Origin: Candidatus Frackibacter sp. WG13
GTDB taxonomy: Bacteria > Bacillota > Halanaerobiia > Halobacteroidales > Acetohalobiaceae
Reading direction: 5' to 3'
NCBI RefSeq assembly: GCF_900114655.1
Contig: NZ_FOTT01000027.1
Location: 1-45,906 of the forward strand
Length of the DNA: 45,906 nucleotides
Shown here: positions 21,009-36,236 of the stretch, one piece after another
Layout of the letters: every line of letters begins with the position of its first letter
How positions within the stretch are numbered: the first letter of the stretch is position 1
Translations under genes and position numbers: made by a program
Notes under the pieces: model-generated
Databases searched by the model: none
Told to the model about the DNA's origin: nothing
Seen by the model: only the letters and a program-made list of their open reading frames with translations

Positions 21009-21037
21009 TTGACAAAGTCTAATGTATGTTATATAAT
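21009..21037 (+). promoter_or_regulatory. sigma-A promoter of the nuo operon
   Basis: TTGACA (21009-21014), 17-nt spacer, TATAAT (21032-21037). It gives a leader of about 500 nt that contains two tandem attenuator elements before nuoK. Confidence 0.75.
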
Positions 21038-21128: not shown

Positions 21129-21252
21129 AGTCCAGCGACGAAAGAGTCCAGAGGCCATAGAGCCCAGAGGCCATTCAGAGTCCAGAGACCTTTAGAGTCC
21201 AGAGGCCAAGTAATTCGTTCCGTTTAAAGGAGTGAGTTACTTGGCCTTTTTT
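21129..21252 (+). promoter_or_regulatory. repeat-terminator leader element 1 (five units)
   Basis: Five units on the pattern AGTCCAGNGRCC (21129 to 21207) with short spacers. The GGCC of the last unit (21204-21207) begins the terminator stem GGCCAAGTAA..., whose 3' arm TTACTTGGCC ends at 21246 and is followed by TTTTTT. Earlier units also carry GGCC and could compete for that arm. Interpreted as an attenuator before the complex I operon; the trigger is unknown. Confidence 0.75.
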
Positions 21253-21327
21253 ATATTTTGTGAAAAAATAATCATATTTTAGAGAGAAAGGAAATATATA
21301 TTTAGTAAGTAAAGTTAAATATTGGTA

Positions 21328-21452
21328 AGTCCAGCGACGATGGAGCCCAGAGGCCTTTAGAGCCCAGAGGCCATTCAGAGTCCAGAGACCTTAGAGTCCA
21401 GAGGCCAAGTAATTTGTTCTTTTTTAAGAGAACGGATTGCTTGGCCTTTTCT
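21328..21452 (+). promoter_or_regulatory. repeat-terminator leader element 2 (five units)
   Basis: A second copy about 75 nt after the first, again with five units. The terminator stem is GGCCAAGTAATTTGTTCT (21403 onwards) paired to AGAGAAC-GATTGCTTGGCC (to 21446), followed by TTTTC. The unit part is nearly identical to element 1, while the stem and loop interior differ. It is the last element before nuoK. Confidence 0.75.
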
Positions 21453-21545
21453 ATTTAAATAAATTGAAAGGAGGTGAAGTAGTAGGAGATAAGTGAAAGG
21501 TTATAATTAATTAGGAGAGTCTTTAAGAATGGGAGGTTTGAATTA

Positions 21546-21848
21546 ATGGTTACTTTAAATCATTACTTACTATTAGCAGCAGCTTTGTTCTGTATTGGCT
21601 TATTTGGAGCATTATCTAAGCGTAATGCTATAGCTGTATTGATGTCAATTGAATTAATGTTAAATGCTGTTAATATTAACTTGGTAGCATTTTCACATTT
21701 TCTCGCTGATACAGTGGGGCAGGTATTTGCAATCTTCGTTATTGCTGTTGCAGCTGCAGAGATAACTGTTGGAATAGCAATGGTTATTGCTATCTATCGC
21801 AACCGCTTTTCAGTTAACGTCAATGAGTTTAATCTATTGAAATGGTAA
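21546..21848 (+). CDS. nuoK: complex I subunit NuoK
   Basis: 100 residues, three membrane helices, normal length. The family motifs [28 protein letters not shown] are all present, including the two membrane Glu (about 36 in IELM and 70 in AAAEI) that belong to the proton path. It is the first gene of the operon rather than the eighth, as explained under NuoL. GGGAGG precedes the ATG. Confidence 0.95.
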
Positions 21849-21879
21849 TTAATAAAGTTAGAGAGGGGTGACCCTGTTA

Positions 21880-23808
21880 ATGGTAGAATATGCTTGGTTG
21901 ATTCCGGTATTGCCACTGTTTTCTTTTTTAATCATCGTTTTATTTGGGCGATACCTTAAAAATGACAGTGATAAGATTGGGATAGGATCTTTATTTATCT
22001 CGTTCTTATTAGCCATTGGAGTATTATTAGAAGTAATCAATGGATCTACTATAACAAAAGAATTTGTCTGGGCAACACATGGAGATATTGAAATTGCTTT
22101 TGGTTATAGTGTAGATGCATTGACTGCCATGATGTTTGTGGTAGTTACATTCGTAAGTTTGATGGTACATGTATACTCTAAAGGCTATATGGAAGGAGAT
22201 AGTAGATACAAACGTTTTTACGCTTGTTTATCATTATTTACTGCGTCAATGTTAGGTTTAGTAATTGCTAATAATTTACTTTTACTCTTTATCTGTTGGG
22301 AATTAGTAGGATTATGTTCTTACCTATTAATTGGTCATTGGTTTGAGGATATTGAAAATGTTTTGGCAGCAAATAAAGCCTTTTTAACTACTCGTGTTGG
22401 AGATATTGGAATGTTAATAGGTGTAATTATGATCTTCGCCATGGGTAAGACCTTTAATTTTGCTGAGTTAACGCATCTTGTTGAACATGGAGAAATTGCA
22501 GGGGTGGGTTTAACTGTAGCAACAATATTTCTTTTTGTTGGTGCTATAGGTAAATCAGCTCAGTTTCCACTACATGTTTGGCTACCTGATGCTATGGCTG
22601 GTCCGACACCGGTGAGTGCTTTAATTCACGCTGCTACTATGGTAGTAGCTGGAGTTTATTTAGTAGCAAGAATGTTCTTAATCTTTGCTGCGGCTAAGAC
22701 TACATTAACAGTAGTAGCATTTATTGGTGGCTTTACAGCTATCTTTGCTGCAAGTATAGCTTTAGTAGAAGAGGATATAAAAGGGGTCTTGGCTTACTCA
22801 ACGATCAGTCAGTTAGGTTATATGGTTTTGGCTTTAGGAGTAGGAGCTTATACAGCTGGAGTATTTCATCTTATGACTCATGCTTTCTTCAAAGCACTAT
22901 TATTCTTAGCTTCTGGTAGTGTAATCCATGCAGTGCATACCCAGAATATGCATAAGATGGGTGGTTTATTAAAGAAAATGAAGGTTACAGGTTGGACTTG
23001 GATTATAGGTTCGGCTGCCTTAGCTGGAGTACCACCTTTTAGTGGATTCTGGAGTAAGGATGAAATTCTATTAGGCGCTTATCATTCCGATTATAAAATT
23101 CTATTTTGGATTGGAGTTATTGCAGCTTTCTTTACAGCCTTCTACATTACTAGAGCAACAATTATGACTTTCTTTGGAGAACCTAGAGATGATCATGCTT
23201 ATGAACATGCACATGAATCACCATCAGTTATGACTATTCCATTAATTCTTTTAGCTATATTAGCATTTGGATCTGGATTTGTGAATTCTCCATTGACAGA
23301 TATGGCATTTGGAAAGTTTATAGCTCTTGAACATGGTCACCATGCTTCACCAAGTAGTTTTGTCCAGATGACAGCAGTTGGAGCGACGCTATCAGGAATT
23401 ATTTTAGGTTGGCTTATCTATGGACTTAGGATCATTTCACGGAAGTCAATTATTAAGTTCCTATATCCGGTTTGGCGCTTATTAAAAGGAAAATACTTTA
23501 TCGATGAAATTTACAATGTAGTTGCTATTAGAGGTTCTTTAGCTTTATCCAAATTAATTGGTGCGTTTGATAAGTATGTAGTAGATGGAATAGTTAATTT
23601 AACTGGTAGGCTAGGCGTCTTTATAGGTGATTTAATAGGTGACTTTGATAACAAGGTGGTTGATGGTGCAGTCAATGGTGTCAGAAATACTTTCTATGTT
23701 GGAAGTAGGTTAATAAGGAATGCACATACTGGTTATTTACAGTCATATGCTTTAACATTATTTTTCTCTGTGCTAATTGGTTTAATTATTATAGTGATAG
23801 GAGGATAA
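21880..23808 (+). CDS. nuoL: complex I subunit NuoL (proton pump)
   Basis: About 642 residues, the largest antiporter-like subunit, with around 16 membrane helices and the long C-terminal lateral helix region (after about 480). Motifs LLFICWELVGLCSYLLIGHW (with the key Glu) and FPLHVWLPDAMAGPTPVSAL are canonical. A GTG at 21868 is in frame, but GAGAGGGGTGA serves the ATG at 21880. In most bacteria nuoL follows nuoK at the operon end; here K-L-M-N come first and A-B-C-D-H-I-J follow. Confidence 0.95.
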   Translation: MVEYAWLIPVLPLFSFLIIVLFGRYLKNDSDKIGIGSLFISFLLAIGVLLEVINGSTITKEFVWATHGDIEIAFGYSVDALTAMMFVVVTFVSLMVHVYSKGYMEGDSRYKRFYACLSLFTASMLGLVIANNLLLLFICWELVGLCSYLLIGHWFEDIENVLAANKAFLTTRVGDIGMLIGVIMIFAMGKTFNFAELTHLVEHGEIAGVGLTVATIFLFVGAIGKSAQFPLHVWLPDAMAGPTPVSALIHAATMVVAGVYLVARMFLIFAAAKTTLTVVAFIGGFTAIFAASIALVEEDIKGVLAYSTISQLGYMVLALGVGAYTAGVFHLMTHAFFKALLFLASGSVIHAVHTQNMHKMGGLLKKMKVTGWTWIIGSAALAGVPPFSGFWSKDEILLGAYHSDYKILFWIGVIAAFFTAFYITRATIMTFFGEPRDDHAYEHAHESPSVMTIPLILLAILAFGSGFVNSPLTDMAFGKFIALEHGHHASPSSFVQMTAVGATLSGIILGWLIYGLRIISRKSIIKFLYPVWRLLKGKYFIDEIYNVVAIRGSLALSKLIGAFDKYVVDGIVNLTGRLGVFIGDLIGDFDNKVVDGAVNGVRNTFYVGSRLIRNAHTGYLQSYALTLFFSVLIGLIIIVIGG

Positions 23809-23812
23809 GATT

Positions 23813-25273
23813 ATGTTATCTACATTAGTATTTGTTCCTTTAATTGGAGCGATTATCACTATGTTCTTGCCAAAAGAAGAAGATAGGATAATTAAGATAT
23901 TTGCTCTGTTAGTAAGTTTAATTCCTATTGTATTGGTAGGAATGATGTGGTTAGATTTTGATATGGCTGCTGCAGGAATGCAGTTTGTTGAAAAAGCAGA
24001 ATGGATTCCAAGTTTAGGGGTTACTTATCATTTAGGAGTTGATGGGATCAGTTTTCCTTTGTTAGTCATTAGTGCTTTAATTACTACTATGGCAATCATT
24101 ACATCCTGGAATATAGACCATCGAGTAAAAGACTTCTTTGCTTTTGTTCTTTTGTTAGAAACTGGTCTATTAGGATTGTTTGTTGCTCTTGATTATGTAT
24201 TATTCTATATCTTCTGGGAGATTGTTCTGGTTCCTATGTATTTCTTGATAGGAATTTGGGGTGGACCTAGAAGACGTTATGCTTCAATTAAGTTCTTCAT
24301 CTATACCTTGTTAGGTAGTGTAGTGATGCTAGTTGGTATTTTGGCTCTATACTTTGGGAGTGGGTTACAGACATTCGATATATTAACTATTGCCCAACAG
24401 GCTAATCTATCTCCAACCTTCCAATGGTGGTTGTTCTTGGCTTTCTTCTTAGGATTTGCAGTCAAGGTACCAGTCTTCCCGTTTCACACTTGGTTACCTG
24501 ATGCTCACGTGGAAGCGCCAACTGGCGGTAGTATGTTACTAGCTGGTGTATTATTAAAGATGGGGGCTTATGGGTTCTATAGAATTTCATATACTACTTT
24601 TCCGGATGCTGCACAATCTTTCGCTTTATTCATGGGAGTCTTAGGAGTTGTTAATATTATTTACGGTGCATTAGCTGCTATGGCTCAAGAGGATGTTAAG
24701 AAGATGGCTGCTTATTCAAGTATTAGTCATATGGGCTTTGTGTTGGTTGGTTTAGCAGCAATGACTCCGATGTCAATGAATGGTGGATTATATGTTCTCT
24801 TTTCACACGGATTGATTTCACCACTAATGTTCTTCTTTGTAGGTAGTGTCTTTTATGATAGAACTCATACACGAATGATGGGAGAATTAGGAGGCTTATA
24901 TACTAAGATTCCATTAGCAGCTGGTTTACTTGCTTTTACCGCTTTTGCTAATCTAGGTCTACCAGGGTTATCTGGATTTATTGGTGAGTTCTTCACCTTT
25001 GCTGGTACTTGGACTGAGTTGCCTAATTTAGTAATGATTGCGGTAGTTGGTTTAGTATTCACTGCGGCTTATCATTTGCGGATGATGCAAAAAGTATTAA
25101 TGGGTGATGCGCCTGCTAAGTACGATGGACTACCGGATATTAGTGCTCGGGAATTATGGGTAGCAATTCCATTAATGTTACTTATCATTTGGGCTGGCAT
25201 CTATCCCAATACTTTATTATCATTCTTTAATCCATCAGTAGAGTCAATCTTAGCAGTACTAGGAGTGATGTAA
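23813..25273 (+). CDS. nuoM: complex I subunit NuoM (proton pump)
   Basis: 486 residues with about 14 helices. Signature FYIFWEIVLVPMYFLIGIWGG carries the conserved Glu, and FPFHTWLPDAHVEAPTGGSMLLAGVLLKMG is complete, including the Lys of the middle channel. AGGAGG lies 8 nt before the ATG and the gap to nuoL is only 4 nt. Confidence 0.95.
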   Translation: MLSTLVFVPLIGAIITMFLPKEEDRIIKIFALLVSLIPIVLVGMMWLDFDMAAAGMQFVEKAEWIPSLGVTYHLGVDGISFPLLVISALITTMAIITSWNIDHRVKDFFAFVLLLETGLLGLFVALDYVLFYIFWEIVLVPMYFLIGIWGGPRRRYASIKFFIYTLLGSVVMLVGILALYFGSGLQTFDILTIAQQANLSPTFQWWLFLAFFLGFAVKVPVFPFHTWLPDAHVEAPTGGSMLLAGVLLKMGAYGFYRISYTTFPDAAQSFALFMGVLGVVNIIYGALAAMAQEDVKKMAAYSSISHMGFVLVGLAAMTPMSMNGGLYVLFSHGLISPLMFFFVGSVFYDRTHTRMMGELGGLYTKIPLAAGLLAFTAFANLGLPGLSGFIGEFFTFAGTWTELPNLVMIAVVGLVFTAAYHLRMMQKVLMGDAPAKYDGLPDISARELWVAIPLMLLIIWAGIYPNTLLSFFNPSVESILAVLGVM

Positions 25274-25274
25274 T

Positions 25275-26717
25275 ATGAATGTTGGAATCTTTACTCCAGA
25301 AATAGTGATGGTTATTACACTAATAGTTATTTTAGGTGTTAAGTATCTGGCTAAGAATCAATTTACAGTGGGATTAACAGCAGTAGTGGGCTTGATAACT
25401 GCTGGAGTTTCATTAGCTTATCTAACTGATGACTTAGGCATGATATGGGGACACTCATTTGTTGTAGATAGTTATTCTATCTTCTTTAAAGCTTTATTAA
25501 TAGGTGTTGCTGTGGTAGTAAGTGTCATCTCATTTAAGTATGTAGAGGAGAAGAAGATAAAGCCTGGTGAATTCTATAGTTTATTAGTTGCTTCGACATT
25601 AGGTATGTTAGTGATGGTTTCGTCTTATAGTTTAGTTTCAATCTATATAGGATTGGAGTTAATGTCAATTTCGGCTTATATTCTTATCGGTATGTTACAG
25701 GAGGATAAGCGTTCAACTGAAGCAGCATTAAAGTACTTATTAATTGGAGCATTAACTTCAGCATTATTACTCTTTGGAGTTTCTCTACTTTATGGAGTGA
25801 CTGGTACTACCAATTTAATTCAGATTGCTGAAGTAGTAAGCTCTGGCCAAGGTGCTTTAACAGCTACAGCTGCTTCTATGACTCCACTTTTGATGATGGG
25901 AGTAGTCTTCGTTTTAGCCGGTTTTGGGTTTAAAGTAGCAGCTGTACCATTCCATATGTGGGCACCTGATACTTATGAAGGAGCACCGACTTCGATTACT
26001 GCTTTTTTGATCACTGGTTCTGAAGCGGCAGCATTTGCAGCATTGTTAAGAGTGTTTAATGTAGGACTTAGTGAATTGGCAGAAACTTGGTCACTATTGA
26101 TTGCGATTTTAGCTCTGCTTTCAATGACTTTAGGTAATATTGGTGCTTTAACTCAGACCAATGTTAAGCGAATGATGGCTTATTCAGCTATTGCTCAGGC
26201 AGGTTATGTGTTAGTAGGGGTTGCTGTTGCTACTCAAAGTGGAATCTTCCCGGTACTTTACTATCTGTTAGCTTATGCATTTATGACTCTAGGTTGTTTT
26301 GCAGTCATAATCTTGCTTAGTAATAACTTCGATAGTGAAGAGTTAGATGACTTTAGAGGATTGAGTGAGAAGGCACCAATGTTTGCTGCGGCAATGACTC
26401 TATTCTTTTTATCATTAGTTGGAATTCCACCAACAGGAGGATTTTTAGGTAAATTCTTTATCTTTAAAGCAGCGATAGGGAGTAACTATCTATGGTTAGC
26501 CTTAGCAATGGCAATTAATAGTGTTATCTCTTTACCTTACTACTATGGTGTAGTAAAGAATATGTACCTTGAAAGCCCAACTAATAATATGAAACTGACT
26601 ATACCATCAGAATTAAAATTTGTAGTCGGATTTTCAGCAATAGCGATTTTAGGATTGGGCATTATTCCTGAAAAGTTTATTAACCTAATTCAATTAGCAG
26701 CTAACTTTGTCTTCTAA
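25275..26717 (+). CDS. nuoN: complex I subunit NuoN (proton pump)
   Basis: 480 residues with about 14 helices. Conserved motifs are SIYIGLELMSISAYILIG (Glu) and VAAVPFHMWAPDTYEGAPTSITAFL. It starts one nt after the nuoM stop, so it is coupled. The three antiporter subunits give the usual proton-pumping capacity. Confidence 0.95.
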   Translation: MNVGIFTPEIVMVITLIVILGVKYLAKNQFTVGLTAVVGLITAGVSLAYLTDDLGMIWGHSFVVDSYSIFFKALLIGVAVVVSVISFKYVEEKKIKPGEFYSLLVASTLGMLVMVSSYSLVSIYIGLELMSISAYILIGMLQEDKRSTEAALKYLLIGALTSALLLFGVSLLYGVTGTTNLIQIAEVVSSGQGALTATAASMTPLLMMGVVFVLAGFGFKVAAVPFHMWAPDTYEGAPTSITAFLITGSEAAAFAALLRVFNVGLSELAETWSLLIAILALLSMTLGNIGALTQTNVKRMMAYSAIAQAGYVLVGVAVATQSGIFPVLYYLLAYAFMTLGCFAVIILLSNNFDSEELDDFRGLSEKAPMFAAAMTLFFLSLVGIPPTGGFLGKFFIFKAAIGSNYLWLALAMAINSVISLPYYYGVVKNMYLESPTNNMKLTIPSELKFVVGFSAIAILGLGIIPEKFINLIQLAANFVF

Positions 26718-26753
26718 ACTAATATGAAATAAAAGTATTTAGGAGGTGCTCAA

Positions 26754-27107
26754 ATGTATGAGTTTAATGGGATTGTAATATTCTTTATTCTGGGTCTATT
26801 AATGCCTATTGGTGCTTTGATTGGAGCTTATATCTTAGCGCCTACAAAGTCATCCCCACAAAAATATTTAACGTATGAATGTGGTCTAGATACCAGAGGA
26901 GAAACTTGGGTTCAGTTTAAGATCTGTTACTTTCTATATGCATTAGTCTTTTTAGTCTTCGATGTAGAAACGATATTTTTATACCCATGGGCTGTTACTT
27001 TTCAACAGCTAGGAACATTTGCTTTTGTTGAAATGTTTATCTTTATTGCAATATTGATAATAGGCTTTGTTTATGCCTGGAAGGAAGGTGCGTTAGAATG
27101 GTTTTAG
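26754..27107 (+). CDS. nuoA: complex I subunit NuoA
   Basis: 117 residues, three helices. [32 protein letters not shown] is the family core, including the Cys loop near the quinone site. AGGAGGTG precedes the ATG. This is where a normal nuo operon would begin. The end overlaps nuoB by 10 nt. Confidence 0.95.
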
Positions 27108-27607
27108 ATGAAAAGAATAGGAGTAGAGTTTCTCTACTCCATGAAATTTTAGATAAAGATAATGTAAAGAATAATATAGTTTTAACTACTGTTGATAAGG
27201 CACTTAATTGGGCACGAGGTAATTCAATTTGGCCTTTGACTTTTGGGTTAGCTTGTTGTGCAATTGAGATGATGGCAACAGCTGCTTCACGGCATGATTT
27301 AGCCCGGTTTGGTTATGAGGTATTTCGAGCCTCACCTCGGCAAGCTGATTTAATGATTATCGCCGGTACCATTACTAAGAAGATGGAGCCGGCTGTGCTA
27401 AGAGTTTACGAGCAGATGCCAGAACCTAAATATGTATTAGCTATGGGCAGTTGTGCTATTAGTGGAGGACCATTTGCTGAATCATATAATGTGGTAAATG
27501 GTGGAGATGAATTCTTACCAGTAGATGTATATGTTCCTGGTTGTCCGCCACGACCTGAAGCGTTGATCTATGGAATTTTGGAATTGAGACGAAAAATTCA
27601 ATCATAA
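27098..27607 (+). CDS. nuoB: complex I subunit NuoB (N2 cluster)
   Basis: 169 residues. It holds the terminal N2 [4Fe-4S] cluster next to the quinone site. Ligand Cys are visible in [12 protein letters not shown] (the adjacent pair), [10 protein letters not shown] and [14 protein letters not shown]. Short N-terminal helix before the domain. Overlap with nuoA implies translational coupling. Confidence 0.96.
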
Positions 27608-27619
27608 AGGAGGGTCAAG

Positions 27620-28021
27620 ATGAAGCCAAGTGTAATCAAGAATCAAATTGAAGATGGAAGTATTAATATAGAGGCTGATAGGTTATATAAGACAATGAAA
27701 ATTTTAAAGACAGCATCAGAATTTAATTACGAGTATTTAATTAACCTTACAGCTGTAGATTATCAAGAATACCTAGAAGTAGTATATCATCTATTTTCAT
27801 TACAAACTGGTGATCGCTTAGAAGTTAAAGTTGAAGTAGACCCTCAAGAACCTGAGGTTCCATCAGTAATGGATATCTGGGGGTCAGCTGATTGGCAGGA
27901 GCGTGAAGTTTATGATATGTTTGGGATAACTTTTAGTTGTCATCCTAACTTAAAACGAATCTTACTAACGGATAATTTTGAAGGATATCCTTTGCGTAAG
28001 GATTTTAAATTAAGTACTTAA
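27620..28021 (+). CDS. nuoC: complex I subunit NuoC
   Basis: 133 residues, near the short end for the family. The C-terminal signature [25 protein letters not shown] and GYPLRKDF is intact. Peripheral arm subunit beside NuoD; not fused to it, unlike in E. coli. AAAGGAGGG precedes the ATG. Confidence 0.93.
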
Positions 28022-28057
28022 ATTTAAACTAAGATAATAAGAAATGAGGTGTAAAAG

Positions 28058-29176
28058 ATGAAAGAGGTTGTTGACCAAGGGATTAAAACGCAAGAAATAG
28101 AGGTTAACTTTGGTCCTCATCATCCTAGTACTCATGGTGTTTTTCGAATGGTTTTAACTCTTGATGGTGAGAATGTTCGTAAAGTTAATCCTCATGTTGG
28201 TTATTTACATCGAGGTATTGAAAAGTTAGCAGAGAAGCGAACTTATGCACAATGTGTACCTTTTACTGATCGTCTAGATTATATCTGTTCTATGACCAAT
28301 AATTTAGCTTATGTGCAGACAGTTGAACAGCTATTAGATTTAGAAGTGCCAACACGGGCTGAATATATTAGAGTGATAGTTTCTGAATTACAAAGAATAA
28401 TTAATCATTGTGTTTTTTGGGCGACTTTTGGTAATGACTTAGGTTCACAAACGGCTTTAATGTATGGCTTTAGAGACCGAGAGATGATTCTAGATGTATT
28501 TGAAGAGTTAACAGGCTCACGAATGACTTACAGTTATATGCGGATTGGAGGTGTAGCTAAAGATATCTCCGATGAACAGTTGAAGGAGATAGAAAGAATA
28601 GTAGATTATATGCTAGATGAAGCACTGCCAGAATATCATAATTTGATCACTGGTAATGAAATATTCCAAGCACGGACTAAAGATATTGGAATACTCAAAC
28701 CAGAAACAGCGATTGATTATGGAGTAACAGGTCCTAACCTTCGAGCTAGTGGAGTAGAATATGATGTACGTAAAGACCAGTCATATGGGATTTATGATAA
28801 GTTTGATTTTGATGTACCTACAAGAGATAAAGGAGATACATATAGCAGATATATAGTCCGCTTAGAGGAAATAGAACAGAGCTGTTTAATTATTAAGCAA
28901 GCGTTAAATATGATACCAGAAGGTAAAGTCCAAGTTAAGAGAGTACCAAAGCGGCCACCAGATGGATCTACTTACAGTAGTATTGAGTCACCAAAAGGTG
29001 AGTTAGGCTTCTACTTAGTAAGTGATGGCTCCAAGAGACCATATCGTTTTCGAGTACGTCCTCCGACCTTTATTCACTTGATGGCACTAGAAGAGATGAT
29101 GATTGGTGAAAAAGTTGCAGATGCTATTGTTATCTTAGGTAGTATTGATATTGTTTTAGGCGAGGTAGATAGGTAA
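28058..29176 (+). CDS. nuoD: complex I subunit NuoD (quinone site)
   Basis: 372 residues. FGPHHPSTHGVFRM at the N-terminus provides the His of the quinone headgroup site, and the Tyr in KRTYAQCVPFTDRLDYICSM follows. The C-terminal SPKGELGFYLVSDG and RPPTFIHL motifs are intact. The nickel-ligand Cys of related hydrogenases are absent, so this is complex I and not an Ech-type hydrogenase. Confidence 0.95.
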   Translation: MKEVVDQGIKTQEIEVNFGPHHPSTHGVFRMVLTLDGENVRKVNPHVGYLHRGIEKLAEKRTYAQCVPFTDRLDYICSMTNNLAYVQTVEQLLDLEVPTRAEYIRVIVSELQRIINHCVFWATFGNDLGSQTALMYGFRDREMILDVFEELTGSRMTYSYMRIGGVAKDISDEQLKEIERIVDYMLDEALPEYHNLITGNEIFQARTKDIGILKPETAIDYGVTGPNLRASGVEYDVRKDQSYGIYDKFDFDVPTRDKGDTYSRYIVRLEEIEQSCLIIKQALNMIPEGKVQVKRVPKRPPDGSTYSSIESPKGELGFYLVSDGSKRPYRFRVRPPTFIHLMALEEMMIGEKVADAIVILGSIDIVLGEVDR

Positions 29177-29220
29177 AGAATTATTACTAAAACTAATTTT
29201 AATTAGAGGAGACGATTCAT

Positions 29221-30252
29221 ATGGGTGCTTTACAGAATTTATTTGTTAACCTAGCTCTATTTTTTCGCGAGAGTATGGTCAATATAGGTTTTTCACAACT
29301 TGGCATTGAGGCAACTATGGATCTTGTAGCAGGGATAGGAGTTTTAGCTGTAATCGCTATTTCAGCATTGGTTTTGATCTATGTTGAACGAAAAGTTGCC
29401 GGTTTTATTCAAGTAAGATTAGGACCTAATCGAGTAGGACCAAAAGGTACGTGTCAGACTGTAGCTGACGCTTTAAAATTAGTTGGAAAAGAGGATATTA
29501 TACCAGATAGAGTTGATAAAGTACCATTTATGATAGCACCTATTCTATTTTTTGCTCCAGCAGTTTTGGCTTTTGCTATTATTCCTTTTGGAGAAAATAT
29601 GATTCCTATAGATATGAATATTGGGATTTTCTATTTCATCGCTGTCTGTTCTTTAAGTACTATTCCTATAATCATGGCTGGATGGAGTTCGAATAATAAG
29701 TATTCGTTGTTAGGAGCAATGCGAAGTTTAGCTCAGTCATTAAGCTATGAAATTCCACTAGTATTTTCGATTCTAGGGGTAGTAATGATTACAGGTTCTT
29801 TGCAGATGAGTGATATTGTTGCTGCTCAATCGGATATGTGGTTTATCGTAACACAACCGATAGCGTTTTTGATATATCTTATTGCTGGAGCAGCTGAGAC
29901 TAATCGACCACCTTTTGATTTACCTGAAGGTGAATCGGAATTAGTTGCTGGGTATATGACAGAGTATAGTGGAATGAGATGGGCTCTCTTCTTCTTAGCT
30001 GAATATGCACACCTGTTTATAGTTTCAGCTATGGCTACTACTTTATTCTTAGGTGGGTGGCATGGACCTATCTTACCATCTTACATTTGGTTCTTATTAA
30101 AGACAGGGTTTATGATCTTTATCTTAATTTGGGTAAGATGGACTTTTCCACGGATCAGAATAGACCAACTATTAAGTTTAGGTTGGAAGTTTTTACTACC
30201 ACTTTCGTTATTAAATATATTAATAACTGGAGTTGTACTTTATATTATCTAA
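29221..30252 (+). CDS. nuoH: complex I subunit NuoH
   Basis: 343 residues with eight helices. [23 protein letters not shown] and [27 protein letters not shown] are the conserved loops that link the quinone cavity to the proton path. It follows NuoD directly, with no NuoE, NuoF or NuoG gene between. GAGGAG precedes the ATG. Confidence 0.96.
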
Positions 30253-30266
30253 GTGGGGGTGATTAG

Positions 30267-30686
30267 ATGTATGGGCAAGGATTGTTAAAAGGGTTAGCTA
30301 CTACTCTAAAAGAGTACTTTGGAGGTTATACTACGCAGGAATATCCAGATGAATATCCTAATCTACCGGATACTTTCCATGGTTCATTTGAATTAGACGT
30401 AGATAAGTGTGTTGGCTGTACAGTATGTGATAGAAATTGTCCTAACTCAGTAATTGATTTAAAGATAAATCGTGGTGAAGATAAGAAGAAAGAGATTGTT
30501 AGATTTAAAGTTGATTTAACAAGGTGTCAGTTCTGTGGATTATGCACAGAAGGATGTCCAACAAATGCTTTGAAATTTAATCAAGAATTTGAATTAGCTA
30601 CTTATAATAAAGAGGATTTAATATTGAACTTATTAGCTGAGAAACCAACTCAAACAAAACCAAAGAAGAAAAAAGAAGTCAGTTAA
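30267..30686 (+). CDS. nuoI: complex I subunit NuoI (two [4Fe-4S])
   Basis: 139 residues with CVGCTVCDRNCPNS and CQFCGLCTEGCPTNA, the N6a/N6b cluster motifs. The C-terminus is a Lys-rich tail. Without NuoEFG, this subunit is the likely docking site for an external donor such as a ferredoxin, as proposed for 11-subunit complexes. GGGGGTGAT precedes the ATG. Confidence 0.94.
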   Translation: MYGQGLLKGLATTLKEYFGGYTTQEYPDEYPNLPDTFHGSFELDVDKCVGCTVCDRNCPNSVIDLKINRGEDKKKEIVRFKVDLTRCQFCGLCTEGCPTNALKFNQEFELATYNKEDLILNLLAEKPTQTKPKKKKEVS

Positions 30687-30711
30687 CTAATATAGGCTGG
30701 AGGTGAAATGA

Positions 30712-31209
30712 ATGGGATTAGAGGCTATAAGCTTCTTGGTTTTAGCGATTATTACCTTAAGTTCGGCTTTAGCATTAGTATTATCAAGAAATATAGTTCA
30801 TAGTGCCTTGTTTTTAATTCTCAGTTTTGTTGGGGTGGCTGGATTATATCTTTTAATGCAGGCTAATTTTTTAGCTGCGGTTCAAATATTAGTATATGGT
30901 GGAGCGATTGCTATAATTTTAGTCTTTGGAGTTATGTTAACTCAAAGAGAAGATATGTCTAGTACTAACCTGTTTAATAAACAGAAAGGATTAGCTCTTT
31001 TAGTTGCTTCAGTATTATTAATGGTTATTAGTAGGGTTATTTGGCTGACTAAGTGGGGAAGCATTACTACGATTAAGACTACTGTTCATAATATAGCTAC
31101 TGTAATGTTACAGCAGTATGTGCTTCCGTTTGAGATAGTAGCTATATTGTTATTAGTAGCAATGATTGGTGCTATAGTTCTAGCTAAAAAGGTAGAGAAA
31201 GCAAGCTAA
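30712..31209 (+). CDS. nuoJ: complex I subunit NuoJ
   Basis: 165 residues with five helices; the third carries AVQILVYGGAIAIILVFGVML, the pi-bulge helix of the family. It is the last nuo gene; NuoK is at the other end of the operon. Leader element 3 lies 26 nt after its stop and would end or throttle the transcript. Confidence 0.93.
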   Translation: MGLEAISFLVLAIITLSSALALVLSRNIVHSALFLILSFVGVAGLYLLMQANFLAAVQILVYGGAIAIILVFGVMLTQREDMSSTNLFNKQKGLALLVASVLLMVISRVIWLTKWGSITTIKTTVHNIATVMLQQYVLPFEIVAILLLVAMIGAIVLAKKVEKAS

Positions 31210-31235
31210 GTATAAAGAATATAATTGAATATTTA

Positions 31236-31330
31236 AGTCCAGCGACAAGCAGAGTCCAGAGACCATGAGTCCGGAGGCCAGAATTTTATCAAGAGAGTTC
31301 TTGATAAAGTTCTGGCCTTAATTTATTTTA
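31236..31330 (+). promoter_or_regulatory. repeat-terminator leader element 3 (three units)
   Basis: Units AGTCCAGCGAC, AGTCCAGAGACC and AGTCCGGAGGCC, then the stem GGCCAGAAtTTTATCAAGA (from 31276) paired with TCTTGATAAAGTTCTGGCC (to 31317). The downstream tract is T-rich but interrupted. It stands between nuoJ and the radical SAM gene. Confidence 0.7.
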
Positions 31331-31353
31331 AAAAAATATATGAGGTGATAAAA

Positions 31354-33060
31354 ATGTCAAAAGTAGATTTAGTTTTGTTGCATCCACCAAGTGTGTATGA
31401 CTTTAGAAAGAAATCGATTTTTTACGGCCCGGTTAGTGATTTAATTCCTTCTTCACCAGTATTTGAAATGTATCCATTGGGATTTTTAACAATCCAGAGT
31501 TATTTAGAAGAACAAGGTTATAAAGTAAGAATCGTTAATTTAGCTGTAAGAATGATGAAAGATGAGAATTTTGATGCACGAGAGTTTATTTCTAAATTGG
31601 ATCCTAAAGCTTTTGGAATTGATCTACATTGGTTGCCACATGCACATGGCTCCTTAGAAGTGGCAAAGATAGTTAAGGAAGAGCATCCTGATACTCCAGT
31701 TATCTTTGGTGGACTTTCATCGACTTATTTTCATGAAGAGCTAGTAGATTATCAACAGGTTGACTATGTACTACGAGGTGACTGTACCGAGGTTCCGTTC
31801 TTAAAGCTTTTGAAGAATATTGAAAATAATAATACTGATAAAGATTCTTTAGAGAAAGTACCTAACTTAACTTGGCAAGATGAAGAACAAACTATTATAA
31901 ATAAACTAGATTTTAATCCGGATAGTTTAGATTATGTTGATTTAAGACCGGAGATTATGATCAAAAATGTATTTAGATATCATGATTTAGAAAGTATACT
32001 ACCATTTGATGGTTGGTTAAACAATCCAATTACAACAGTATTTTCAGTGAAGGGTTGTAAGCAAGGGTGTATTACATGTGGGCGTTCAGTGTGCACTAAT
32101 GAGCACTATAACAAACGCCAAGGTCCGATATTTAGAAGTCCGGCTAGTATGGTAAAGAATATGAAAAAGATTGCTCAGTTCTCTCGCGGGCCAATCTTCA
32201 TTGTAGGTGATATTAGGCAGGCAGGAGGTGGCTATGTGAGTGAATTTCTCAATAGGTTAAATAAGGCAAATCTTAAGAATGAGATTGTATTTGAGTTATT
32301 TAGTCCAGCTTCCGGAAAGTTCTTAAAGAAGATAGATGAATCAGTACAAAATTGGAGCTTAGAGCTTTCTCCTGAAAGCCATAGTGAAGTTGTAAGAAAG
32401 GCACAAGATAGAACTATCTTTTATACTAATGAAGAGATGGAAAGAACATTGGATATAGCTACTGAATTAGGTTGTAATCGTATTGATGTTTTCTTCATGA
32501 TTGGGTTACCTAGACAGACTCCAAAATCAGTACAAGAGACAATTGATTATTGTGAGTATCTGTTTGAGAAGTATGATGAAAGATTATCATGTTTTATTTC
32601 ACCAATGGGGCCGTTCTTAGACCCTGGTAGCTTAGCTTTCGAGCATCCAGAAAAGATGGGTTATAAGAAGTTGGCGCATACATTAGATGACCATAGAAAG
32701 CAATTGACTAATTCTTCGTGGGAAGAAATTCTAAGTTATGAGACAGATTGGATGACACGAAAAGAGATTGTAGAGCAGACCTATTCAGCAGCAGAAAGGT
32801 TAAATAAGTTGAAACATAAATACGACAGAATTGATGACCAGACTAATGAGAATATCACTAACCGAATTAGTCAGGCTAAGAAGTTAAAAGAGCTTCTTGA
32901 AAAGAAAGATGAAGAGTTAGACTTTGTAGAACATTTAAAACTAAGAGGTGAGATTGACAAGTATAGTATCTCTACTGTTTGTGATAAGACAGAGTTAGAT
33001 TGGCCAGTTAAATTTATAAAGTTTAAGTTATCAGGAATCTTTAAGATGTTATTAGCTTGA
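31354..33060 (+). CDS. B12-binding radical SAM protein (TIGR04190-like)
   Basis: About 568 residues. The N-terminal part (about 1-150) resembles a cobalamin-binding Rossmann domain but lacks a clear DxHxxG, so base-off B12 binding is not certain. The radical SAM cluster motif is CKQGCITCG (CX3CX2C, about residue 230), with a GDIRQAGGG region after it. The C-terminal 90 residues form a charged helical tail. Overall layout recalls the Ta0216/TIGR04190 family, function unknown. GAGGTGAT serves the ATG at 31354. It follows element 3. Confidence 0.8.
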   Translation: MSKVDLVLLHPPSVYDFRKKSIFYGPVSDLIPSSPVFEMYPLGFLTIQSYLEEQGYKVRIVNLAVRMMKDENFDAREFISKLDPKAFGIDLHWLPHAHGSLEVAKIVKEEHPDTPVIFGGLSSTYFHEELVDYQQVDYVLRGDCTEVPFLKLLKNIENNNTDKDSLEKVPNLTWQDEEQTIINKLDFNPDSLDYVDLRPEIMIKNVFRYHDLESILPFDGWLNNPITTVFSVKGCKQGCITCGRSVCTNEHYNKRQGPIFRSPASMVKNMKKIAQFSRGPIFIVGDIRQAGGGYVSEFLNRLNKANLKNEIVFELFSPASGKFLKKIDESVQNWSLELSPESHSEVVRKAQDRTIFYTNEEMERTLDIATELGCNRIDVFFMIGLPRQTPKSVQETIDYCEYLFEKYDERLSCFISPMGPFLDPGSLAFEHPEKMGYKKLAHTLDDHRKQLTNSSWEEILSYETDWMTRKEIVEQTYSAAERLNKLKHKYDRIDDQTNENITNRISQAKKLKELLEKKDEELDFVEHLKLRGEIDKYSISTVCDKTELDWPVKFIKFKLSGIFKMLLA

Positions 33061-33073
33061 AACTTTAAAGCTT

Positions 33074-33100
33074 TAAAATAATAAAATTATTTTACTTTTA
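33074..33100 (+). terminator. AT-only hairpin after the radical SAM gene
   Basis: TAAAATAAT/ATTATTTTA with an AAA loop, followed by CTTTTATT. Weak because it has no GC pairs. Confidence 0.4.
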
Positions 33101-33197
33101 TTACCATATTTGCAGGAGAATACCTCAGAAATCTAGAATTAATATTATAGAAAGGATGTGATGATATAAGTTCTTGTGATAAAAATAACAATCTTGA

Positions 33198-33353
33198 TTA
33201 TAATCCAATTATATTATAATTAATGACAAAATAATTTAGTTGGATTATATTAATAAACTAATATTCAACTCAAGGTAAATGTTAAGGGGATAGTTTCAAA
33301 ACTTAAAGATATTAAAGTGTAGACTTTAAGGGGGTCATATTCACTTTAATATC
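33198..33353. other. two stem-loops in the intergenic region before the first zinc-ribbon gene
   Basis: The gap 33061-33373 has no gene I can support. TATAATCCAA (33198-33207) pairs perfectly with 33240-33249, and GATATTAAAGTG (33308-33319) pairs perfectly with 33342-33353 around a 22-nt loop. The second ends just before the ribosome-binding site of the zinc-ribbon gene. They may shape the leader or be operators. Confidence 0.5.
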
Positions 33354-33373
33354 AAAAAAAGGGAGGATCATTA

Positions 33374-33547
33374 ATGAAAGATGTAAGATGTGCCTGTGAT
33401 AAGTTGGTGTCTAAGATTGAAGAAGACAAGATCATTATTAAGTGTAGGCATTGTAAAAGGTTTGTGGTGATTCAGGATCGTCAGATTACAAGAGTTGAAT
33501 ATAAGAATTATAGACAAAGTTCAGAGACAAGAGTCCAGAGACTTTAA
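33374..33547 (+). CDS. Com-like zinc-ribbon miniprotein 1
   Basis: 57 residues with two Cys pairs, RCACDK (CxC) and KCRHCKR (CxxC), joined by a short basic beta-rich stretch. From memory the pattern resembles phage Mu Com (RCxxCxKLL...IxIRCPRCKR), an mRNA-binding zinc-finger regulator. GGGAGG precedes the ATG. Its last ten codons run into repeat element 4, so the terminator element overlaps its own 3' end. It is a paralogue of the gene at 33976. The role as an RNA-binding regulator is hypothesis. Confidence 0.75.
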   Translation: MKDVRCACDKLVSKIEEDKIIIKCRHCKRFVVIQDRQITRVEYKNYRQSSETRVQRL

Positions 33548-33592
33548 GTCCAGAGGCCAGCGTTGTGTAGTTTACAATGCTGGCTCTTTTAT
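33518..33592 (+). promoter_or_regulatory. repeat-terminator leader element 4 (three units)
   Basis: Units AGTTCAGAGAC, AGTCCAGAGAC and AGTCCAGAGGCC, then the stem GGCCAGCGTTGTG (33555 onwards) paired with TACAATGCTGGC and followed by TCTTTT. The first two units overlap the end of the zinc-ribbon gene. Confidence 0.72.
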
Positions 33593-33633
33593 ATTTAAAA
33601 TGAAATATTAAGATTATGCTCATGATTAATTTG

Positions 33634-33702
33634 AGTCCAGAGACTTTAAGTCCAGAGGCCAGCATCACAGAAGTATTGTTGTGATGTTGGCCTCTATTTT
33701 TA
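33634..33702 (+). promoter_or_regulatory. repeat-terminator leader element 5 (two units)
   Basis: AGTCCAGAGAC, AGTCCAGAGGCC, then GGCCAGCATCACA (33657 onwards) paired with TGTGATGTTGGCC, followed by TCTATTTTTATTT. It sits 40 nt after element 4 and before the small membrane-protein gene. Confidence 0.72.
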
Positions 33703-33737
33703 TTTAATCCAATTTTATTAGAAAGGGGGGATTAACA

Positions 33738-33932
33738 ATGACATTCATCCTAGCAGTTAGCGCATTATTGATAGTGTTGTTTAGTTTTGGAACAGGTTGG
33801 TTATTAGTTGATGAAACGTTTGATATTCAGCACAAAGTCTTAAAAGGAGTTACTTTTGTTCTCTTAAGCGGAGTATTACTAGCATTAACTTCAGTGCTTT
33901 ATACGATGGTTATTTGGCCAACTAATTTTTAA
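33738..33932 (+). CDS. small two-helix membrane protein
   Basis: 64 residues with two predicted membrane helices (about 2-24 and 36-59) and a short polar loop VDETFDIQHK between. I do not recognise a family. AAAGGGGGG precedes the ATG. Its position between repeat elements 5 and 6 and next to two zinc-ribbon genes, the seven-haem cytochrome and cytochrome b-like genes suggests it belongs to the same respiratory region, possibly as a small subunit; that is inference. Confidence 0.7.
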   Translation: MTFILAVSALLIVLFSFGTGWLLVDETFDIQHKVLKGVTFVLLSGVLLALTSVLYTMVIWPTNF

Positions 33933-33975
33933 AAGTAATTGATTAGTCAGAACTTATAGTAAAGGAGGTGGAGGT

Positions 33976-34128
33976 GTGGAGGCAGATGCCATAGATGATT
34001 ATTTAAGGTGTAAGTGTGGAAAGATTGTTTGTGAGATAGTAGAGGATAAGGTGATTATTAAGTGTAGACACTGCAAACGATTTGTAGTTATTGAAGCCGA
34101 ACAGGTAAAGACGATTGAGTATAATTGA
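33976..34128 (+). CDS. Com-like zinc-ribbon miniprotein 2
   Basis: 50 residues with CKCGKIVC and IIKCRHCKRFVVI; the second half is identical to that of the 33374 product over about 12 residues (IIKCRHCKRFVV). Four Cys in two CxxC/CxC knuckles should bind one zinc. GTG start behind AAAGGAGGTGGAG. The pair are clear paralogues. Resemblance to phage Mu Com is from memory. It ends 18 nt before repeat element 6, so it too lies beside an element. Confidence 0.75.
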   Translation: MEADAIDDYLRCKCGKIVCEIVEDKVIIKCRHCKRFVVIEAEQVKTIEYN

Positions 34129-34145
34129 ATATTCTAAATAGAGAT

Positions 34146-34206
34146 AGTCCAGAGACGTTAAGTCCAGAGACCAGTGCTATTAATTTAGCTGGTCTCTATT
34201 TTTATT
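34146..34206 (+). promoter_or_regulatory. repeat-terminator leader element 6 (two units)
   Basis: AGTCCAGAGAC and AGTCCAGAGACC; the terminator stem AGACCAG (34168-34174) pairs with CTGGTCT (to 34195) and is followed by CTATTTTTA. Here the unit reads GACC instead of GGCC and the 3' arm changes to GGTC, a compensatory change. It stands before the seven-haem cytochrome gene. Confidence 0.72.
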
Positions 34207-34239
34207 TTTTATTTATTGAAAGGGGTGAAAAATTTAAAA

Positions 34240-35118
34240 ATGAATATAAGAAAAGGATTATATTTAATATTGATGCTGAGTTTATTATTTGTCTTTAATG
34301 GTGTGCTTTTAGCCCAGGATAATATTCCTGCTGCTAATAAATCATGTTTGACTTGTCATCAACGAGAAGGGTTTAGCACTAAGCATGACGGCAAAGAGAT
34401 ATCATTAACTGTTGACCCAGCTGTACTAGCAGATTCGGTTCATAAGAATAATCCATGTACTACTTGCCACATGAATATTCAAGGTTTTCCGCATCAAGAT
34501 GTAGTTTATGGTCAAGAGTTAACAGTACAGGTGACTAAGAGTTGTCAGATGTGTCATGCTAATGTAGCTAAGGATTATAAAGCAAGTAAACACTGGAAGG
34601 CAACAAAAAATGGTATGGCTGATGTAAGCTGTAATGCGTGTCATGGTGAGCATAATGTGCAGAAACTAGAACTAACTAAACAAGAGGAAGTTAAAATGTG
34701 TACTCAATGCCATCAAGGAGCTATTTTAGAAGGTTATAAGCAGAGTTTTCATGGTAAAGCAGTATTATTAGGCAGTCAAGAATCAGCCAGTTGTGTAGAC
34801 TGCCATGGCGCCCATAAGGCATTAGGGGATGAAGTAGCTGCCTCACCAGTCTCAGCCAAGAACAAACCAGCTACTTGCGCTAAGTGTCATCAGGATGCGC
34901 AAGCAAATTTTGCTAAAGGAAGTGAACACTTAACTTTATCAGCAAAAGATAAGAATAAGATTCCATATTACATTAGTAAAGCGTATATATGGTTGATTAT
35001 CTTAACTATTGGGTTTATGTTAGTTCATATCTTAATTGAGTTATTTGGTAAGTTTAGAAAGGCTAAGAAAGATGATATTACGATAGATGTAGATGATTCA
35101 GATATAGATCTTAATTAA
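34240..35118 (+). CDS. seven-haem c-type cytochrome with C-terminal membrane anchor
   Basis: About 292 residues. A signal peptide (about 5-25, ending LLAQD) is followed by seven CXXCH motifs: CLTCH, CTTCH, CQMCH, CNACH, CTQCH, CVDCH and CAKCH. A single helix at about residues 250-272 anchors it, leaving an acidic tail in the cytoplasm. The next gene encodes a cytochrome b-like protein, so the two probably form a quinol-oxidising electron-transfer module. ATG at 34240 behind AAAGGGGTGA. No terminal reductase is in the window. Confidence 0.9.
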   Translation: MNIRKGLYLILMLSLLFVFNGVLLAQDNIPAANKSCLTCHQREGFSTKHDGKEISLTVDPAVLADSVHKNNPCTTCHMNIQGFPHQDVVYGQELTVQVTKSCQMCHANVAKDYKASKHWKATKNGMADVSCNACHGEHNVQKLELTKQEEVKMCTQCHQGAILEGYKQSFHGKAVLLGSQESASCVDCHGAHKALGDEVAASPVSAKNKPATCAKCHQDAQANFAKGSEHLTLSAKDKNKIPYYISKAYIWLIILTIGFMLVHILIELFGKFRKAKKDDITIDVDDSDIDLN

Positions 35119-35134: not shown

Positions 35135-35986
35135 ATGCTAATGGAAGAAAGAATATCATTCTCTGAAGAACGCGGTCTGATGTTTCAACGACTCACATTG
35201 AATCAGCGGATTCAACACTTTGTTAACTTCTTAACTTTCACTACTTGTGTAATAACCGGACTACCAATTAAGTATCATGGAGCAGCTTTATCTGCTAAGA
35301 TAGTTTCATTATTTGGTGGGTTTGATACAATGTTCTATACACATGTAGTTAGCGGTATATTGATGTTATTAGCGTTTAGTTATCACTTTGTTTACTTAGC
35401 AGCATATGCATACTTAAACGAACCTTCATTTGCGATTCTACCAAAGTGGAAGGATGCAGTAGAGATAGTACAAACGATAAAGTATAATTTGGGATTGACA
35501 GATGAGCATCCAGAATACGGTAGATACTGTTATAAAGAGAAGATGGAATATTTAGCATTAATTTGGGGTACAGTGGTTATGGGTTTGTCTGGTTTAATGA
35601 TGTATTTCCCACAGATAACAGTTAAGTTTGTACCCCGTTGGGTAATCGAAGCATTTAGAGCAGCTCATAGTGGTGAGGCGGTACTAGCAGCATTAGCAAT
35701 CGTTGTTTGGCATATGTATAATGCTCATTTAAGTCCAGACTTCTTTCCAATGAATAAGACTTGGATTACAGGGAAGGTAAGTAAGACGCAGATGGAACAT
35801 GAACATCCAGAGGAATTAAGAGAGATTATGGATGAGATCGATTATAAGGAAGAATTGAAAACAGATGTTGAAGACTCTAAAAGCTTTAAATTTGCTAATA
35901 GCAGAGGGTTAATAGGAGTAGAAATAGCACTTTATGCAGTATTTTTAGTCTGGTTATTAAAGACATTTGTTCCGTTAGGATTTTAG
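35135..35986 (+). CDS. cytochrome b-like (formate dehydrogenase gamma type) membrane subunit
   Basis: 283 residues with about five helices. LNQRIQHFVNFLTF, YTHVVSGILML, SYHFVYL, AAHSGEAVLAALAIVVWHMYNAHL carry the His residues expected of di-haem b subunits. It should take or give electrons to the quinone pool and serve the preceding seven-haem cytochrome. Two ATGs (35135, 35141) follow AAGGAGGG; either could be used. The spacing of 16 nt to the previous stop supports an operon. Confidence 0.85.
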   Translation: MLMEERISFSEERGLMFQRLTLNQRIQHFVNFLTFTTCVITGLPIKYHGAALSAKIVSLFGGFDTMFYTHVVSGILMLLAFSYHFVYLAAYAYLNEPSFAILPKWKDAVEIVQTIKYNLGLTDEHPEYGRYCYKEKMEYLALIWGTVVMGLSGLMMYFPQITVKFVPRWVIEAFRAAHSGEAVLAALAIVVWHMYNAHLSPDFFPMNKTWITGKVSKTQMEHEHPEELREIMDEIDYKEELKTDVEDSKSFKFANSRGLIGVEIALYAVFLVWLLKTFVPLGF

Positions 35987-36074
35987 CTTGCAAATTTTAG
36001 AATAATTATCTTCCTTTTAAGAAAGAATATTAATAAGTAATTTTAAAAATTCATTCTAAAGAAGGAGGATGATT

Positions 36075-36236
36075 ATGAGTTCATTTAAGTGTAGTGATTG
36101 CGGCACTGAATTCTCAGCTCCATTATGTTGTGGTGAGGAGATGGCTAGTGCTGGCAGTAACTATGTTTGCGAAAACTGTGGTAAAGTAATGGATGAGGTA
36201 GAAGCTAGTGTTACCGATGTGAACTGTTGCGAATAA
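36075..36236 (+). CDS. small zinc-ribbon/rubredoxin-like protein
   Basis: 53 residues with nine-Cys-class content: CSDCG, CC, CENCG and a terminal CC. Two CxxCG knuckles would bind one zinc or iron; the extra vicinal Cys pairs (LCCGEEM and NCCE) are unusual. GAAGGAGG precedes the ATG. The gene is alone between the cytochrome b-like gene and a terminator. I do not recognise a named family. Confidence 0.75.
   Translation: MSSFKCSDCGTEFSAPLCCGEEMASAGSNYVCENCGKVMDEVEASVTDVNCCE

Follow-up and report, generated by a model that had tools for sequence, protein, structure and literature searches.

What decides whether RNA polymerase passes the terminators that punctuate a set of respiratory genes? 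This question is raised by contig NZ_FOTT01000027.1 of Candidatus Frackibacter sp. WG13 (assembly GCF_900114655.1; Bacteria; Bacillota; Halanaerobiia; Halobacteroidales; Acetohalobiaceae), whose 45,906 nucleotides (nt), read on the forward strand, constitute the window analyzed here. An earlier note on this DNA had described six leader elements, each composed of short repeated units that run into an intrinsic terminator, and had suggested that a factor binding the units could block the terminators. Our analysis supports, with moderate confidence, a model wherein small zinc-ribbon proteins resembling Com of phage Mu, encoded beside the elements, bind the units and prevent termination, such that each element is a protein-controlled attenuator.

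All six elements are present on the forward strand at the positions given in the earlier note (21129, 21328, 31236, 33518, 33634 and 34146). Element 1 (21129-21248; units 21129-21207, stem 21202-21248) and element 2 (21328-21448; units 21328-21406, stem 21401-21448) each carry five units followed by a terminator. Three units are found in element 3 (31236-31319; units 31236-31279, stem 31274-31319), which lies between nuoJ and a radical SAM gene, and in element 4 (33518-33585; units 33518-33558, stem 33555-33585), which overlaps the end of the first zinc-ribbon gene. Element 5 (33634-33695; units 33634-33660, stem 33654-33695) and element 6 (34146-34197; units 34146-34172, stem 34166-34197) have two units each, and these counts bear out the predicted range of two to five copies. 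The unit consensus is AGYCCNGNGRC, repeated with a period of 14-19 nt; element 4 begins with a degenerate copy (AGTTCAGAGACA, two mismatches). When up to two mismatches are allowed, AGTCCAGNGRCC has 27 matches in the window compared to 5.4 expected, a number reached by none of 100 shuffles, and 20 of the 27 fall inside the six elements. Throughout the organism's genome (2.77 Mb), all nine exact matches to AGTCCAGAGRCC are located on the window contig, beyond which there are merely six scattered single units with one mismatch.

The last unit serves as the 5' terminator arm in every element: its GRCC opens the hairpin, and T-rich sequence follows. Predicted minimum free energies range from -16 to -33 kcal/mol for five of the hairpins, and the stem of element 4 has 13 pairs. 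A scan for consensus terminators reports five of the six, and the unlisted element 6 has a bulge in its predicted stem. This last element carries GACC in its unit and the compensating GGTC in its 3' arm, as previously observed. No Rfam 15 family was found on the elements at gathering score, either in the window or in seven related loci, and a search of positions 33480-34260 at E<=1 returned nothing, in agreement with the claim that no described RNA family has this form.

Homologous elements are present in other bacteria. A pattern of two units matched 12 of 101 genomes (comparison genomes are given G numbers and loci L numbers, with G000 being the window's own genome). On inspection by eye, the same elements as in G000 occur in G002 of the same family and in G060, G062, G069, G096 and G099 of the same phylum. 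The pairs in G010, G056, G066, G071 and G087 were judged to be chance occurrences and were dropped. A set of 28 elements, taken from the window and from relatives picked by eye and aligned by MAFFT alone, was then used to build a covariance model, which was searched against 398 genomes, all from one phylum and related to each other. Matches were obtained in 35 genomes at E<=1e-3 and in 28 at E<=1e-6; the latter span 13 family groups and carry 2-11 matches each at E<=1e-3. Matches in G164, G298, G370, G387 and G390 (E 2e-4 to 8e-4) are not counted as strong because they are incomplete or contain no clean units. Two of 14 genomes reached via named loci also have elements, namely Clostridiales bacterium PH28_bin88, whose match coordinates are identical to those of G167, and Candidatus Acetocimmeria pyornia. 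The nuo operons of other bacteria (80 named loci, 1.39 Mb) yielded two weak partial matches (E 0.07 and 0.19), and the element pattern had no match in the viral contigs searched.

The survey produced 158 model matches in total, of which 137 were kept for counts of genomic context, and several of these share a genus and so are not independent. The 21 that were dropped comprise nine opposite-strand echoes of palindromic stems, eight weak matches (G164, G096:C13, G370, G387, G298), two array-internal matches in the window and two further weak matches (L229 1835, L228 5565). Most elements carry two 12-base units (101 of 137), and ten have no clean unit at one mismatch and represent divergent types.

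Nucleotide covariation strongly supports the terminator stems. In the seed alignment (28 rows), 95.6% of stem cells are paired and six of the nine pairs have changes on both sides, and none of 500 shuffles reaches this result. Among 129 distinct model matches, 96.0% of stem cells are paired, with 147 both-side changes compared to 35.3 after shuffling; when restricted to one genome per genus (107 rows), the values are 95.8% and 116 compared to 27.0, again with no shuffle in 500 reaching the observed number in either set. The 129-row alignment was fitted to the covariance model, and the seed aligned only by MAFFT shows the same picture. Alignment A3 retains 15 of the 21 dropped rows, and the covariation and hairpin counts were repeated without them. 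Structure is therefore kept while sequence changes, as the earlier note had proposed from six copies, and the search that it recommended uncovers homologues in 28 of 398 genomes, with elements before respiratory genes in relatives and with stems that covary. Both the relatives and the covariation whose absence would have counted against that proposal are found.

The factor was left unnamed in the earlier note. Its suggestion of a unit-binding factor remains plausible, and the evidence now points to neighboring zinc-ribbon genes. Those beside elements 4 and 6 (33374-33547 and 33976-34128, both on the forward strand) encode C-x-C-...-IKCRHCKR zinc ribbons and are likely to provide the trans-acting factor. 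The first, which is the proposed factor, matches the PHROG family phrog_13819 (gpCom) at E 1.3e-5; the second matches it at E 0.013, and its best PHROG match is of no known function. Among 20 aligned zinc ribbons, the four Cys residues of C-x-C...C-x-x-C are invariant in all 20, gpCom is matched by 16 at E<=0.1 (best 1.1e-5) and the PHROG 'translational regulator' family by 12 at E<=0.1 (best 5e-5). An AlphaFold model depicts a small, three-stranded protein with a predicted local distance difference test score (pLDDT) of 86.7. A search for a phage origin gave 98 viral-contig stretches that fit the peptide pattern, none of which was confirmed.

Elements and zinc ribbons occur together. At cut-offs of E<=1e-6 for the element and E<=1e-15 for the zinc ribbon, both chosen after the tables had been seen, strong zinc ribbons are present in 34 of the 398 genomes: 26 have both features, 2 the element only, 8 the zinc ribbon only and 362 neither (Fisher p 1.5e-31, kinship not corrected for). 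When E<=1e-3 is used for both, the corresponding numbers are 29, 6, 16 and 347 (p 8e-27, with the same reservation). The two element-only genomes, G310 and G333, are incomplete (63% and 61%). Within the organism's own family, G000 and G002 have both features, and G001, G003 and G004 have neither. The two are also physically linked, with 48 of 137 element matches starting between -40 and +50 nt from the stop codon of a zinc-ribbon gene and 60 between -70 and +120 nt. Relatives of the zinc ribbons adjoin elements in other genomes, and clusters L136, L140 and L141 are without one nearby.

Further evidence comes from units of a second type (type II), found at some zinc-ribbon clusters, which read AGTC-GTTA-GACT, AGTC-TATA-GACT, AGTC-AAAA-GGCT and others. 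Among 88 distinct zinc ribbons, those with Gly after the second Cys (CxCG) accompany type I elements by 38 to 0, and those with Lys (CxCK) accompany type II elements by 21 to 0. Other residues at this position are Asp (two), Glu (two), Ser (one) and Asn (one) with type I, and Asn (three) and His (two) with type II; the remaining 18 zinc ribbons have no element within 450 nt. Thus, the zinc-ribbon subfamily predicts the element type. On a zinc-ribbon tree that is poorly resolved (53 columns), and with element types that were defined after data inspection, types I and II require three changes, and all three labels require 13 compared to a shuffled mean of 37.3. A second covariance model, made from 14 divergent elements, matched 29 of the 398 genomes and recovered, at E 1.3e-7, type I elements from the window. 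The two types look related because a model of type II alone re-finds type I. The matches to this model in G076, G286 and G310 occur without a zinc ribbon.

These findings suggest the following mechanism. By default, RNA polymerase would transcribe the units and then the terminator, and would stop. When the Com-like zinc ribbon is sufficiently abundant, it would bind the tandem units in the nascent RNA, and the protein on the last unit would occupy the first bases of the 5' terminator arm, thereby blocking the terminator and allowing transcription to continue into the next gene. Because terminators are placed after the zinc-ribbon gene and between later cistrons, the regulator would be made at a basal level. 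A small transmembrane protein, the multiheme cytochrome c and cytochrome b561 would be expressed once the regulator has accumulated or been activated, as would complex I in the organism's own family only. For the hairpin formed by the unit itself, eight unit oligonucleotides gave predicted folding energies of 0 to -3.8 kcal/mol, compared to -12 to -34 kcal/mol for the terminators (30 folds, some with misjudged 3' ends). Beyond the unit hairpin we noticed no RNA pairing that competes with the terminator, although no systematic search was made, which suggests that a protein is needed. The zinc ribbon is proposed as this protein because of linkage, co-occurrence, the pairing of subfamily with element type and the kinship to gpCom. 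We infer that the zinc ribbon binds RNA, that the bound protein suppresses termination instead of enhancing it, and that the signal is zinc, redox state or protein level; the protein then probably decides whether the respiratory genes are read.

The phage protein provides a useful comparison. For the Com zinc finger of H. sputorum, systematic evolution of ligands by exponential enrichment (SELEX) gave tandem GAG(N)2CC in 868 of 999 sequences, and the authors suggest CC(N)2-3GAG, presented in a hairpin loop closed by C-G, as the sequence recognized by Com, at a site that partly overlies an inhibitory stem and would melt it upon binding (PMC6483171). The footprints by the same authors described there show no melting, and earlier binding results are reported to be contradictory (PMC6483171). 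The type I unit AGUCCNGAGRCC contains CCNGAG, with C4 and G9 being nearly invariant, as the model search itself favors. The similarity to Mu Com, an RNA-binding zinc finger, would include a short, four-Cys zinc-binding protein, a target with CC and GAG, and a site that partly overlaps an inhibitory stem (PMC6483171). In contrast to the Com/mom system, the genes described here are chromosomal, the targets are respiratory, there are several elements per genome, and the inhibitory stem is a terminator rather than one that inhibits translation.

Several observations weigh against the zinc ribbon as an antiterminator that reads these units. The published Com motif has a spacing that is longer by one or two bases (PMC6483171), and because of this difference we regard the match as a resemblance and not an identity. 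A G precedes the unit in only 44 of 135 rows, so that the tandem GAG arrangement (GAG-N-CC-N-GAG-R-CC) is in the minority, and type II units lack the CC and GAG of the Com motif altogether. A mini-hairpin within the unit (GUC-CNGA-GRC) was attractive because Com prefers hairpin loops, but pairing there shows no excess (82.1% compared to 82.5% shuffled; 202 of 500 shuffles reach the observed pairing in A3), and positions 3 and 10 of the unit show no dependence (p 1.0 and 0.35); with neither covariation nor excess pairing, this substructure was rejected and is kept as a bare possibility. Sequence kinship of the protein to Mu Com is weak, reaching E ~1e-5 at best in PHROG and falling below the Pfam cut-off, where the Com model matches only 3 of 20 zinc ribbons. 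Other zinc families give equally weak matches (zf-C2HC5 in 8 of 20), no related solved structure emerged from two PDB sequence matches at E 0.017-0.023, and a PDB fold search was uninformative (best E 0.63).

The genomic association also has exceptions that count on the same side. Linkage alone could reflect shared operon membership. Among the eight genomes with a strong zinc ribbon but no strong type I match, G168 and G173 carry divergent type II elements, and the other six (G104, G125, G142, G207, G216 and G434), each with a single zinc ribbon, were matched by neither element model, which indicates that these elements are not required for the zinc-ribbon family to be retained. In G125, a pair of unit-like sequences lies 3' of the zinc ribbon. 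The lone zinc ribbons of the other five (L253, L255, L256, L257 and L258 in G104, G142, G207, G216 and G434) follow a gene that by eye resembles a D-Ala-D-Ala ligase, and a similar gene is located upstream of the zinc-ribbon cluster in G172 (L218). The genomes with lone zinc ribbons may have lost the cytochrome cluster but retained the zinc-ribbon gene.

The same linkage and co-occurrence would also be seen if the zinc ribbon binds the units but stabilizes termination, giving autogenous repression of respiratory operons with the sign of TRAP. Many elements indeed lie directly 3' of a zinc-ribbon gene, as expected for feedback on its own operon. However, the last unit includes the 5' arm of the terminator, so a bound protein should hinder the hairpin, and the stem melting proposed for phage Com (PMC6483171) likewise favors antitermination. 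On balance, we consider repression unlikely.

Another RNA-binding protein, such as HutP, TRAP (MtrB) or some other factor, might instead bind the units, with the zinc ribbon being a mere neighbor such as a cytochrome assembly factor. Among 26 genomes picked for having both the element and the zinc ribbon, HutP and TRAP are each present in 24, a distribution that detracts from the case for the zinc ribbon, and the window's own genome encodes a TRAP-like protein (G000:C14:62306-62509) and two HutP-like proteins (G000:C30:56164-56541 and G000:C34:114586-114963). However, these genes are on other contigs than the window, HutP was not found in G108 (99% complete, 2 contigs) or G334, and TRAP was not found in G139 or G225 (93% and 89% complete). 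Neither protein would account for the correspondence between zinc-ribbon subfamily and element type or for the kinship to gpCom, and this possibility also strikes us as improbable.

A simpler view is that these are ordinary operon-internal terminators whose repeat is a signal for RNA processing or 3'-end protection, with no regulation involved. The elements do end in credible terminators and many are located between genes, but the units upstream of the stem are conserved in 2-5 copies although they should be dispensable for termination, elements 1 and 2 lie in tandem between the consensus promoter match and nuoK, and the zinc ribbon co-occurs with the elements, all of which makes this view very doubtful. 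The least probable view is that the units represent a mobile repeat family or operator sites to which a transcription factor binds in DNA. Direct repeats at a period of 14-19 nt do resemble operator arrays, but 130 of 137 matches have the next gene on the same strand, the units overlap covarying RNA stems, elements occupy identical gene junctions in G000 and G002 although their stems have diverged, and there is only one cluster in the organism's own genome.

Protein-directed antitermination is known as a kind, with HutP among its families beside ANTAR and BglG/SacY; both the family of RNA elements described here and the class of proteins proposed to act on them appear to be new. RNA repeats linked to terminator control are also a feature of HutP. 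Neither these elements nor antitermination by chromosomal Com-like proteins was named in the titles or abstract openings of the top-ranked open-licence PMC papers, with subscription literature lying outside this search. Other systems share parts of the arrangement. Like the targets of ANTAR proteins (EutV, NasR, AmiR), the elements have two small units before a terminator, the second of which overlaps it, and the ANTAR-controlled eut locus likewise has terminators interspersed through the operon (PMC3369931). Unlike ANTAR targets, the units have no hexaloop with A1 and G4 (PMC3369931), but rather CNGA or CCNGAG in type I, and they are conserved in sequence. ANTAR proteins are encoded by 23 of the 26 genomes with both features, with none found in G000, G002 or G139. 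The ribonucleic antiterminator (RAT) of the BglG/SacY family also involves a protein-dependent block of an overlapping terminator, but is one hairpin of 29-30 nt (PMC3369931), whereas the elements contain mostly two and up to five 12-base repeats. The window's own genome encodes one CAT_RBD protein, and its elements are 12-base repeats rather than a single RAT hairpin (no RAT model was run). TRAP ties RNA repeats to terminator control as well, but its repeats are tandem UAG and it promotes termination (PMC3369931); the units here are 12 bases long.

The genes proposed to be under control can be described from their positions, with context genes around the elements predicted by a simple open reading frame script. 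Downstream of elements are zinc ribbons, small transmembrane proteins, cytochromes c with 6-7 CXXCH motifs and a radical SAM protein, as well as an MFS transporter and an AAA gene that precedes VWA genes; ten representative downstream proteins were scanned with Pfam. In all ten divergent zinc-ribbon clusters examined, a cytochrome with 7-8 CXXCH motifs is found within a few genes downstream, followed in nine by a cytochrome b561-like gene, named by resemblance to scanned proteins. Complex I is a target in G000 and G002 only, with 3 of 137 matches preceding nuoK (two in the window and one in G002). The earlier proposal that complex I and cytochromes are switched on together may hold for the cytochrome genes, which elements do precede, and does not extend to complex I beyond the organism's own family. 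Shared targets center on multiheme cytochrome c/b561 operons, zinc ribbons and small transmembrane proteins.

Elsewhere, at L140, L215, L226, L232, L242 and L245, a pair of elements precedes a gene predicted to encode an MFS transporter (one of these was scanned); the six genomes belong to one family group, and the pairs lie apart from the zinc-ribbon cluster. In G060 and G172, which are from different family groups, an element and a small transmembrane protein are found directly 3' of a gene that by eye is ftsZ-like (L136 8839-9180 and L219 7048-7260).

The gene placement in the window had been described correctly: two elements lie before nuoK, one between nuoJ and the radical SAM gene, and three around the remainder. 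A perfect sigma-70 promoter match (TTGACA-17-TATAAT, 12 of 12 consensus bases) is located at 21009-21037 on the forward strand, ~90 bases upstream of element 1; promoter-like sites number 3 in the scanned stretch compared to 2.0 in shuffles, making this a consensus match and not proof of a promoter. Elements 1 and 2 would accordingly reside in a ~500-base leader ahead of nuoK (21546-21848, forward strand; NF004322 NuoK over cut-off). This is the first gene of a nuo cluster (21546-31209) with the order K-L-M-N-A-B-C-D-(H)-I-J, in which none of the genes tested proved to be nuoE, nuoF or nuoG; the gene at 29221-30252 is a putative nuoH, and nuoI is assigned by Fer4 domains only. The B12-binding/radical SAM protein follows (31345-33060, forward strand), and a similar protein comes after an element in G002 (by eye) and G146 (scanned).

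Elements 4-6 surround the two zinc ribbons, a small protein predicted to have two transmembrane segments (33738-33932), relatives of which adjoin elements in other genomes, and a multiheme cytochrome c with seven CXXCH motifs (34216-35118). Next is a membrane protein of the cytochrome b561 family (35135-35986; PF01292, E 4e-13), and these three genes are likewise on the forward strand. A further small Cys-rich protein (36069-36236) after the cytochromes scores over cut-off with a TiaS zinc-ribbon model and was not recovered by a search with the Com-like zinc-ribbon pair.

Taken more broadly, chromosomal Com-like zinc ribbons could form a class of antiterminators with its own RNA family, not described in the literature searched. 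A single cell could then contain several protein-RNA pairs (CxCG with CNGA units, CxCK with other loops) that open the terminators at each cistron boundary; in this way, at least two multiheme cytochrome c/b561 operons, and also complex I in one family, would be switched independently. We rate the chances of this broader proposal as about even. If true, it would add a class of proteins of ~50-60 residues to the handful of antitermination protein families, and the nearest studied relative of these antiterminators would be a phage translational activator. The elements would constitute an RNA family by which multiheme-cytochrome operons of anaerobes could be recognized, and would yield testable predictions as to the genes that are controlled jointly. 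These would be compact protein-RNA switches, whose specificity may track a single residue beside a zinc-binding cysteine.

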